From the NCBI GenBank assembly GCA_014526335.1, contig JACTAT010000368.1, positions 690,056-754,055 on the forward strand: a stretch of DNA of 64,000 bases. The letters run 5' to 3'. The DNA is from Chrysaora quinquecirrha (taxonomy: Eukaryota > Cnidaria > Scyphozoa > Semaeostomeae > Pelagiidae). Below, one piece after another: positions 40,109-49,100 of this stretch (positions are counted from its first letter, which is position 1; the number at the start of each line of letters is the position of its first letter). Both the position numbers and the translations under genes were made by a program. Under the pieces are notes generated by a model. That model had not been told where the DNA came from. It searched no databases and saw only the letters and a program-made list of their open reading frames with translations.

Positions 40109-43100
40109 CTTAAAAAAAGAAAAATTTACACAAGACAATAAGAAAAACGTTTAAAACAAATCTTATCCTCTCGTAATCAATATAAACTACTTTCATGAAA
40201 AATGTAAACTTTGTGTAATAAAACTTAGCACTTTATTAAGAAACCATGGGCTATAGCGTGTGTAGTTGGCAACAAGATAAGATTATTACAGACACAAGAA
40301 CAACCTCGTCCCCAGGGTGAATAAGCCTCTACATGAAACTCCGCTGTCCATATTCGACCCTGGTATCGGCCTTGTCTATTCGCAATTTGATTGGCTGTTC
40401 AAACAATAAAAATTTTAAGTGACGTCACAGTTTCTTCAAAATTTCACACCAAAATAGGCCGAAAACTATGTAAAAAGCATCCATAAAAACCAAAAAATGA
40501 TGCTACATGAGATATTGTATCTTGCCTTAAAGTTATCGATGAAATTCTTTGCATTTCCTTTCTAAGAACATCTGCTTTCGGAATCTACATCTTGTTTTTA
40601 TGCCTAGGCCAAAATTGCCAGTATTTTGGCAGATTTTGTGGCCGGTACCAGGGCCAAAATCGTTTTGACGGTTGAGATTCGAGGAAATTCGATTCCGGGC
40701 CTGGGGACGAGGTTTATACAAGAAATGCTTTGCCTTTAATCAATCGAATGAAAATCCTTATTTTCGCATTTACATGAAAATTAATAGACAGAAAACATTT
40801 CTTCTCAAAGTTTTTTGCCTTACGAAAAATCATCTTCGAAAAATTTGTTCCTTGACAAGTTTTATTGCTCGTGTAAATGGATAACAAGTTTCTTTGACAA
40901 TTATGGTTCTTCAATCTAAGTATTAGAAAAATTGTCAAGTCCACTTGTCAAGTAATCTGCATGAGCAGTTTCGCATATGAAAATTTTTATGTCCGTAGGA
41001 CATATCAAGAGGGTGTTTGTGGCATATATGTATGGATGTGTAGACGCTTTTTCCTGCCAGATGTGTAACAAAACATAAGCCACAAATACGAGAAAGTAGA
41101 CTTTGAAGTCGCAGTAATTCGACATCATGCAAACCAACATTCATTTGGGTTGGTTGTTTACAGGCGACTCTTGAAGCCATTAAATAGATAGTTTGGGTTT
41201 TTCCTAAGATTCCAGAAATTCTCATTTACATATTAAGATATTATCGTGCAGAGTGGAGTTGTCTGTTGCGTTCTGGATATTGTTGCGAAATTTTAGATTT
41301 ATTTTGACTCGGTGATTGTCAGAATATTCTCGATGTTCTTAAATATAAAGATATGCATTTAATTTGTTAAAAAATGGTATGCCATATTTAGACAAGTGCA
41401 CTTGTCATATGAAAAATTGTCAATTGACTTCAAAATGGTCCCATATACACGAGCAAAATAAAATTGTCAATGAAAATGTGTCATCGAAAAATTGCTCGTT
41501 TGATTTTGGCTTTTTCTCAGTTATTTCGGAAAATAAAAGGCTAAAACTGGTATTGTTCATGTCCTTGATGACTGAAAACATTAAAATGAATTTATAATGT
41601 AGCTAAGTAAAATATCGCCTTGGACAGAAATAATCAAGATAAAAGATCGAAATTTCTAAGAATATATGTCTATATTCTAGCTAAATTCTGAAACAACGCT
41701 TTAGATTAACGTGCCGCAAGCTTATTTGACAGCTGTTACCGCAGTTGATACCATATAATTCTATAAGTGCCTTACAAATACAAGAAAGTATATAAAAGGA
41801 ATACCTATTCATCCTCATAGTATTAACAGGCTTCTTAATAGCAGGTGGTTGAGATGGTGGATGTGGTGCTACTTCAGTCTTGTTATTTAGTTGCTTCAAG
41901 TAAGCATCATAATATACTTTCTGAGCACGTTTTACATTTGCATCGACTCTTTTGCTTTCTCTTTGTGAGAAATATTTGTTTCTCTTGTCTAATTCTTCAA
42001 AGTCCAATGTTTGTGTACTTGTAGATCTTTGAGTCTCATTGACAGCAGAAACACTACTTGCAGCGTTTTTCAGGAATGTGTTCCCATACGTGACAAAACT
42101 TTCAAATGTGACATCAGCATCGTATTTTGCTGTGTTCTTTAATAAATTTCCGCTTATATCAGAATCGGCTACAAGTTTTTGATTTATGGTCGTTCTTCTG
42201 CCATGAATAGGGGCACTCGAGTGTCGAACATGGTTCCTTATCTTTTTATCTGTCTTTACGTTATTTAATTTTTCGTCATGGTTTGATACAATTGTTTGGG
42301 TCGCATATTCTTTAATACCAGATCCTTCACAGGCTGATAATAAAATAAATTGATTGTAAAAAATGGGATAGGTCTTACTGTCCTTTCACCATCAAATTCT
42401 ATAGCTACCTTTTTGTGCGATTTTGTGTGACACCCTATCTGGGCAGGGTTTTTTTGAGCATCCTCAAACCGGAAGGAGGGTAGTTTATAGTGAAGGAGAT
42501 AAGCAGAAGAATTGTGCAAATTGTGATACAAGCACCAAAATTTCAGATAATACTAAGTTTGATACGCTAAAAAAGATGCGATATAGACCCAAGTCATATC
42601 TTGCCCCTAAGTTCTATTTTTAGACTGGGGTTCTCTGGTCCAGATGCCTAATCGTATCATTGGCCATAAACTGAGAACGCCAGGTCATAGAAAGTCACAA
42701 TTCACCACATAAACACAGTTTGATACGCTGAAAAACATGTGATATAGACCCAAGTCATATCTTGCCCCTAAATTCTATTTTTAGACTGGGGTACTCTGGT
42801 CCAGACCTCTAATCGTATCATTGGCCATAAACTGAGAACGCCAGGTCATAGAAAGTCACAATTCTCCACATGAACGCAGTTTAATACGCTGAATAAGATG
42901 TGATGTAGACCCAAGTCGTATCTTGCCCCTAAGTTCTATGTTTAGACTGGGGTAATCTGATCCAGTATAGACCCAAAACATATATTGCCCCAAAGTTCTA
43001 TTTTTAGATTTGGATAATCTGGCCCAGACCCCTAATTGTACCACTGGGTTTAGAGGGAGAACGACAGGTCATAGAAAGTCGTAATTCACAGTCAAGGACA

Positions 43101-46100: not shown

Positions 46101-49100
46101 TTAGGGGCAAGATATGACTTGGGTCTATATCACATCTTTTTCAGCTAATTAAACTGCCTTTATGTGGTGAATTGTGACTTTCTATGACCTTGCGTTCTCA
46201 GTTTATGGCCAATTGTACGATTGGGGGTCTGGACCAAAGTACCCTAGTCTAAAAATAGAACTTAGGGGCAAGATATGACTTGGGTCTATATCACATCTTT
46301 TTCAGCGTATTAAACTGCGTTTATGTGGTGAATTGTGACTTTCTATGACCTTGCGTTCTCAGTTTATGGCCAATTGTACGATTGGGGGTCTGGACCAAAG
46401 TACCCTAGTCTAAAAATAGAACTTAGGGGCAAGATATGACTTGGGTCTATATCACATCTTTTTCAGCGTATTAAACTGCGTTTGTGTGGTGAATTGTGAC
46501 TTTTTATGACCTTGCGTTCTCAGTTTATGGCCAATTGTACGATTGGGGGTCTGGACCAAAGTACCCTAGTCTAAAAATAGAACTTAGGGGCAAGATATGA
46601 CTTGGGTCTATATCACATCTTTTTCAGCGTATTAAACTGCGTTTGTGTGGTGAATTGTGACTTTTTATGACCTTGCGTTCCCAGTTTATGGCCAATTGTA
46701 CGGTTGAGGGTCTGGACCAAAGTACCCAAGTCTAAAAATAGAACTTAGGGGCAAGATATCACTTGGGTCTATATCACATCTTGTTCAGCGTATTAAACTG
46801 CGTTTATGTGGTGAATTGTGACATTCTATGGCCTGGCCTACTCAGTTTATGGTCAATTGTACGATTGGGGGTCTGGACCAGAGTACCCCGGTCTAATAAT
46901 AGAACTTAGGGGCAAGATATGACTTGGGTCTATATCACATTTTTTTCAGCGTACCAAACTTAGTATTTTCTGAAGTTTTAGTGCTTGTATCACAATTTGC
47001 ACAATCCTGCTGTATTTCTGCACTAATCTCCTGCACTATTAGCCCCCACCTTCGTATCTCATAATGTACAAACGCACAGCAACCAAATTTAGATGAAAGA
47101 GACCACTGACCAAGTTTTGTGGCGAATCAGTCTTAAATTCTACATCTAAGAACAATAAGCGACTTAATGTAACCAAAACTTAATCTTTGGAATATTCAGG
47201 ATACCTTAAATCTTATTTTTATTATATTCGTGTTAAAATTCAGCATATTTTGAAGAAAAGTAGTTTCAAATGCTATACTATAATATCATATAATAATGAC
47301 TTACCTAGACAATGTCTGAGTCTCAGCAGCCTTAACATTAAAATTACCTAGAATAGCTAAAGCAAAAAAACTTCAAAGAAGTTACCTTTTGAAGAGAAAT
47401 TCAGTTTGATGTTATTTGTGATTACTGCCGATGTTGGGCGAAGTTTTTCAAATGTTGCGCTTGCTTTACCTTCAGTAAGAACACAGAAATGCAATTAACT
47501 GAACACAGATTACAACATTGCGAGTCTTTAGTCCAACAAATTAAGCCCTTTCTTGAAGCAACTTATACAAAATAGTTTGGTGTTTGTAATTATGTTATAT
47601 GCTGGTTGACTCTATGTTGTATTGCTTGGATTAAAATTTGACATAAATGACATTTTGCTGACGGTACAGAGTGCATCAATGCTTCAAATGGCAATAGCGT
47701 ATAGCATTAAAAAGAGATGATTAAGCACAATGATAAAAACCCAAATCATTGCGGATAAACACAAACCATTTTACTATGCCAATAAATATCACATTTACTG
47801 TAAAAGAAATATTTTAAATCCACCTTGTTTTACTTTTGGATTTGCTGACACTGGCCTAGACATTCTAGCTAATGGCTGACCATAAATCTTGACAGCAGAA
47901 TCTGGACACGAAAACTTTTGAGGAGCAGCGATATGAGAATCGTCGTCGTTTCTTTCTCTAAGAAAATCACGCCAGCTGGATGATTTCGATGATTTGTAAT
48001 CACTTGTTACTCTGGGAAGTAAAGAGAGGATCCTGTCATTTCTAGTAATTTAATCAGCAGTTTAAATTAAAGAAACAACAAATGGATCCGCTGATAAGAT
48101 CAATGTTCTGAAAAAGTATTTTTCGTCCAAATTTTTAATAGTAGGCGACCGATGTGGTCAACGCAAAAAGTTTCTCTATGGTATGGGTTAACGGCTTTCC
48201 AGAAATTAGTTGTTATTCCTTAGTGAATTGAGCTGAACATGAATTGTGAATAGAAGCAGTTATATAGAAACAGATTCGGTTACAAAGAAATGGGAGAGAA
48301 ATAGAAACTCATTTTCTGTTTACAATTAGGAAATAAGCAATAATAATATTCAGGAACATTCAGAAACAGTCAATGTCGCAGATGACACAACTTTATTCTT
48401 ACCATACAAACACTCCATTTCACGTTTCCCTACAAAAGTTTGGTTGTAATTCTGAAATCTTCACATTTGTTTTAGGATGTTAATTCCTCAAACGTATCTT
48501 CATAAGAAAACCAGTTTTTGCATTGAAGAAGAAACTTAATTGACTTTTTGATGTTTTGATCCACAAAATTGCAAACAATTTTAAGCAAGATATGTTGATG
48601 AATATAACATGTATTAGATTAACCCAGTTTTTAATAAACAAAAAAGACATCGATTAAAGTAAACTAAATATAGAAAAAAAGGTTACCCGTTATTTGTTGC
48701 TTCGTTACGTTCTTTTCTGCCCACACGCGATTTTTCTCCAAGAAAAATTGCAGCTGCTTGATTGCTTCTTGTGTAGGCACTTAAAAGTTCTTCCAGCTCG
48801 TCTTCACTGCATGCGCGCATAAAATATGAATTAGCATTGGTATTTAATTGACAAATTCAAAGGAAGACAGGATGACAAGAATGGTCTCAACAGAGCAAAA
48901 AAGAAGAGCTGACATGCAAAACAGTCAGTTATCTACTTTAACGTTTGCTAAACGTGGGCGAGCAAAATTTAGAGACATTCCCACTTGAAGTGTCAGAACC
49001 ATTTATAGATATATTATTCTCTTCTTCAAGTGCCGTATCAAGTGAGTTTTGCAACCGTGGAATGCCGGAATGCAAAACTATTGCCAAGTTCAAGAGTTCG

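Follow-up and report, generated by a model that had tools for sequence, protein, structure and literature searches.

The closest described counterparts of the element analysed here are foldback transposons of Drosophila. Tetris of D. virilis has inverted ends with tandem repeats of about 220 bp, a variable middle and a satellite seeded by the transposon. It makes target site duplications (TSDs) of 8-10 bp, was placed in the Mutator superfamily by its authors and has no reported autonomous copy; foldback elements in general may be without a known transposase source, and none was found for Tetris (available text of PMC4079207). Galileo, a member of the P superfamily with foldback-like long ends and a P-type transposase, has tandem repeats, of about 140 bp, in the ends of only its longest copy in D. 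willistoni (available text of PMC4168063). Short satellite arrays are spread by Helentrons in Crassostrea gigas (excerpts of PMC7492417). We analysed a window, that is, a whole stretch of 64,000 nucleotides from the scyphozoan Chrysaora quinquecirrha (contig JACTAT010000368.1, positions 690,056 to 754,055), and searched an element within it against its own assembly (328 Mb in 740 contigs). Very probably, the element is a defective DNA transposon of 4,551 bp with inverted ends built from 161-bp satellite arrays, likely moved by the transposase-nuclease of an intact relative, such as the copy C146, and to be filed under AcademX. It shares with Tetris the repeat-bearing inverted ends, the variable middle and the seeding of a satellite, and with Galileo the long ends and, going by structure models of homologues, a transposase that may be of the P type. 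However, unlike Tetris, it has 3-bp duplications and gene-bearing copies; unlike Galileo, its tandem repeats occur in every copy examined and also next to distantly related genes; and unlike the Helentron satellites, its two inverted arrays are the ends of an element with 3-bp TSDs.

The exact limits of the element are 42488-47038, with termini TAGTG...CACTA and the trinucleotide TTA duplicated on both flanks (42485-42487 and 47039-47041, unstranded, from the comparison of element ends). The initial annotation had the location right, but its limits, 42470..47053, overshot the element by 18 bp on the left and 15 bp on the right. The left outer end (42488-42555, plus strand), starting with the terminus TAGTG, is of a type that we call A (TAGTGAAGGAGATAAGCAG...) and recurs elsewhere in the genome. 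It is followed by the left satellite array of 161-bp monomers (42556-43177, plus strand), with 2.5 clean copies at 42556-42965 and then copies decaying toward the interior. The right array (44481-46960, minus strand) runs opposite to the left one and comprises 15.2 of the 161-bp monomers, and the right outer end, of type C (46961-47038, minus strand), closes with CACTA. The outermost pair of arms, including the non-satellite ends, is 42497-42965/46551-47019, 469 nt and 89% complementary, in agreement with the earlier description of two arrays of one satellite in opposite orientation with shared outer ends.

Between the arms there is, as initially proposed, a broken member of a coding family with the motif HEEAD(T)R, which reads HEEANMR in this copy. 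The gene is a wreck in two frames, split by an insertion of about 435 bp. The first fragment (43253-43608, plus strand, frameshifted) corresponds to the start of an XPG-type nuclease region, and the second (44044-44275, plus strand) to its end; both match the longer gene of a copy in C290 and the gene of C146. The later nested insertion (43609-44043, unstranded) has GC-rich inverted ends ACACGGGGGG...CCCCCCGTGT and is flanked by the short direct repeat GCATG; the C146 gene, like that of C290, lacks it at the corresponding codon. The stretch downstream of the gene (44282-44367, plus strand) matches C146 past its stop codon (L057:7812-7897, 87%).

A search with the satellite gave 78 matches that fall into 27 places (L001-L048). 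Scoring covered 40 of the 491 candidates from the first look, and thus the count is a lower bound biased to the best copies. At all 27 listed places there is at least one outer end flanking the satellite, and gene-family sequence is found in or beside the array. Satellite arrays without outer ends, which would have suggested accidental juxtaposition, were observed at none of the 27. Both ends are visible at 21 places within the stretches retrieved; a single end was seen at the remaining six (C124, C186, C290:11511000, C313, C395, C534). The ends fall into two types, and every two-ended copy combines an A-type end (TAGTGAGGGAGATAAGCAGAAC...) with a C-type end (TAGTGCAGGAGATTAGTGCAGAAATACAGC...). 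The flanks of different copies are unlike, and similarity starts at TAGTG.

Before the TSDs were counted we removed the duplicates C129 (the same as C85), C414 (the same as C290:14659500), C170 (the same as C631) and the second, mirrored copy in C631. Identical trinucleotides were observed at 14 of the 18 distinct two-ended sites: TTA in the window and C354, AAA in C115, TAA in C85 and C290:14659500, TAT in C631, C357 and C380, GAC in C171 and C442, TAG in C288, TGG in C290:11144492 and C2, and CTT in C339. Together with C146 (CAA/CAA), this makes 15 of 19. The mismatched sites are C167 (TAG/TAA), C225 (CAA/GAT), C320 (CCT/ATG, with the terminal base altered) and C69 (CTA/TGG). The C631 locus contains two mirror-image short elements (L038:165-3108 and 6210-9157) with mirrored flanks, which may reflect either duplication as a palindrome or an error of the assembly; the site occurs again in C170.

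One could suppose that a host satellite came to flank an unrelated multicopy gene by accident and that the neighbourhood was later copied by segmental duplication. The evident duplicates listed above and the C631 palindrome are what such a history would leave. However, 19 distinct two-ended sites stop at the same base, their flanks differ, 15 of them carry 3-bp duplications, and a transposase-type gene lies inside the same ends in the long copies. We give this explanation almost no credence, and a host satellite with chance neighbours is rejected in view of the junctions at the 19 sites. The copies have long inverted ends with internal tandem repeats, a variable middle and discrete termini with TSDs, the features of foldback elements. 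The suggestion that the arms are not a chance pair is borne out by the joint occurrence of outer end, satellite and gene piece, and so is that of a foldback-like transposon spreading both the satellite and gene pieces.

Two copies are much richer in coding sequence. In the copy at C290:11144492-11153978 (9,487 bp), ends and arms like those of the window element enclose a much longer gene, spread over several frames. It has no nested insertion at the codon interrupted in the window; a different foreign element is present instead. This foreign element (L037:2891-5669, C290:11145390-11148168) has inverted arms of 808 bp, 99% identical, and a frame in it contains DHEEADTKLMALVQ...SGDIDILAIFL (L037:4217-4585); it looks like a second armed element, distantly related and from the same protein family. 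A genome search with one C290 frame gave 126 matches, some of which are pieces of one copy. The top match after C290 itself, C146:813723-814670 (94%), lies in an open frame. Several of the 126 matches are in open frames of more than 1,000 codons, and C376:188622 is on the window's own contig.

The C146 copy (L057) is an element of 7,027 bp with the same ends and satellite arms: a C-type end at 2228, satellite at 2306-3025, an open frame at 4438-7707, inverted satellite at 8271-9210 and an A-type end at 9254. The frame has 1,090 codons with the first ATG at codon 17, the N-terminus being provisional given a separate 155-codon frame upstream. This single frame holds both DDE-transposase and XPG-nuclease motifs. 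Since it lies inside the same ends, the window gene is not cargo, as had been thought; capture of a foreign gene is rejected in view of the long copies, and the window fragments are, judging by sequence, the remnant of the element's own transposase-nuclease gene.

Nor does the coding family now lack a candidate function, as had been stated. Modelled structures of homologues resemble the transposases of the P element, Transib, RAG1 and Hermes in their front half and the EXO1/FEN1/XPG nucleases in their back half. Thus the front half is predicted to be a DDE transposase of the RNase-H type that carries a helical insertion, and the back half to be a 5' nuclease related to XPG, FEN and EXO1. The Academ nuclease is of the XPG type. 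The HEQNN and HEEADTR parts also occur in one chain in the protein P0102 (593 aa). The C-termini of P0135, P0141 and P0233 have a CXC-like run of cysteines, and the C146 frame ends in ...RAAYQAG ahead of such a run; AcademX proteins carry a cysteine-rich C-terminal domain. No Pfam model scored above the cut-off in a set of six long homologues or in a set of ten, DUF6589 being below the cut-off in seven of the ten. For the window gene fragments there was no Pfam match up to E 1. A sequence search of PDB gave no convincing match, no relatives were found in viral, plasmid, phage and prokaryote collections, and Rfam had no match in the window at gathering thresholds.

Several other superfamilies were considered, and CACTA/EnSpm and Mutator were rejected. 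The termini of CACTA/EnSpm elements are 5'-CACTA...TAGTG-3', whereas the present element has them reversed, starting with TAGTG and ending with CACTA. The Mutator superfamily has TSDs of 8-10 bp against 3 bp here. The duplication length does not fit the P superfamily either; the fold of the homologues resembles the P-element transposase among others. The element is best placed in the AcademX lineage (Academ superfamily), an assignment made from TSD length and nuclease. According to the available text of PMC10045372, TSDs are 3 or 4 bp in AcademX and 9 or 10 bp in AcademH, a difference tied to the encoded helicase and nuclease. The present element likewise combines 3-bp duplications with a predicted element-encoded nuclease, whereas satellite-array arms find no mention in that text.

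It is also conceivable that the family forms an undescribed superfamily outside AcademX, in which case the 3-bp duplication and the nuclease would be convergent. This would agree with the termini TAGTG...CACTA, with the long homologues having no Pfam model above the cut-off, and with the fact that the AcademX assignment was made by features. However, both the TSD length and the nuclease link given for AcademX (available text of PMC10045372) are present here, and we regard a separate superfamily as unlikely. A partial survey of the literature, with subscription journals and Repbase Reports outside it, found nothing linking Academ with foldback or satellite arms, and no mention of Academ turned up in the available portions of PMC5139131, PMC12628747 and PMC11071193.

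The short form, to which the window element belongs, differs from the long copies in orientation. The C-type end is on the 5' side of the gene in both long copies, whereas the A-type end is there at all 20 two-ended short-form places (three of them duplicates). A single inversion of the interior, of the kind that inverted arms are expected to promote, could explain this swap. The GC-ended insertion in the HEEAD part is present, whole or partial, at 24 of the 27 listed places; it is missing at C290:11144492 and C380, and the sequence at C290:11511000 is too short to judge. The gene and the insertion are joined as in the window also in P0002, a protein from another public record (a 1,835-bp contig). 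A sub-line of copies (11 of the 27 listed places) contains a further inserted 3' end, which from its reading frame we take to be that of a LINE. Each nested insertion is common to many sites, and therefore the composite multiplied after it was assembled. The short form may have arisen by an internal deletion, which left the nuclease part, and an inversion between the arms; the nested element, and in some copies the LINE end, would then have landed in it, and the product would have been amplified in trans.

In ten elements (148 full monomers), monomer identity is 94.4% within the same arm, 94.1% between the two arms and 93.5% between elements; against the C290 long copy it is 86.8%. The values within and between arms and elements are nearly equal; arms are not evolving in isolation from one another. 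In the same ten copies the arms contain 3.8-12.3 monomers on the 5' side of the gene and 2.8-15.4 on the 3' side. The Tetris proposal that the outer end is the source of the monomer was rejected here: the two share only 7-8 nt, and scores this high also arise in 74 to 240 of 300 single-base shuffles.

We also examined, with their flanks, two diverged relatives found by protein alone (about 55% protein identity; two of the 126 matches). In L058 the two arrays are inverted and comprise 2.3 and 5.2 copies of a 158-bp period, and the ends read TAGTG/TAGTG with AAA/AAA. In L059 one side carries 4.6 copies of a 160-bp period, whereas the opposite side has an outer end with about one inverted monomer and no array, within a direct duplication of 608 bp; its ends read TAGTG/TAGTC with AGG/AGG. 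Thus gene copies free of arms, the other observation that would have counted against the initial annotation, were not encountered in these two, as both relatives have related satellite on both sides. Consensus monomers were built for the three lineages from a single element per lineage (7, 5 and 4 monomers), and their identity is 53-57% (83/158, 91/160, 84/158). All three share an invariant 13-base box, CTATTTTTAGACT, followed by one variable base and an equally invariant GGGTA. The box was used to phase the alignment, and unphased BLAST recovered the same region. A box kept in an otherwise drifting monomer is what is expected of a binding site. Extra transposase-binding sites have been reported in the end repeats of Galileo (Marzo 2013 as cited in the available text of PMC4079207).

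These data can be read in two ways. One possibility, which we hold as a minority view, is that the arms are passive: tandem repeats lengthened by slippage or unequal exchange, a by-product of long inverted ends with no role in movement. The highly variable arm length, the almost equal similarity of monomers within and between arms and elements, the chance level of resemblance between outer end and monomer, and the single monomer on one side of L059 all point this way. On the other hand, while its presence at the 27 places follows from the way the search was built, the satellite also occurs in both long copies and beside the two diverged genes, with the 13-base box conserved, and a passive by-product need not persist for so long. 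From the sequence comparison, the satellite is an old and probably working part of the transposon. More tentatively, inverted arrays of units of about 160 bp may have been kept as ladders of transposase-binding boxes by an AcademX-like lineage through divergence to about 55% protein identity, the fused XPG-type nuclease resolving flaps or hairpins of the arms, and transposition seeding the satellite genome-wide. In the mechanism proposed for the favoured transposon reading itself, the transposase would bind the box repeated in every monomer, pair the two arms, cut at TAGTG and insert with a 3-bp stagger, and the nuclease half would trim flaps or hairpins at the cut ends or target gaps.

The rest of the window contains several other repeats. 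An inverted pair of 414 bp with 94% identity (40301-40714/51741-52153) brackets the region with the element and probably consists of two copies of a different repeat. Units resembling GGGACCCTTAGGT form two mutually inverted arrays (9920-10020/10515-10626), about 500 bp apart, a further satellite-armed arrangement on a small scale. A (TGACAA)n hexanucleotide repeat occupies 775 bp (29286-30060, 97% matches). An open frame on the minus strand (1214-1945) with CCHC-like zinc knuckles (CFNCTGFGHGGSKC) resembles a remnant of a retroelement gag gene. Exactly 500 N in a row (38507-39006) may represent an assembly gap or masked sequence.

The predictions made here provide a likely function, that of a DDE transposase with an XPG-type nuclease, for a large family whose members are labelled 'hypothetical' or 'uncharacterized' in fish, insects, molluscs, corals and crustaceans. 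One genome contains both defective copies with satellite arms and copies that bear the gene, one of them in an open frame, all with the same ends and arms, and thus both the mover of a foldback element and selection on its satellite become directly testable.

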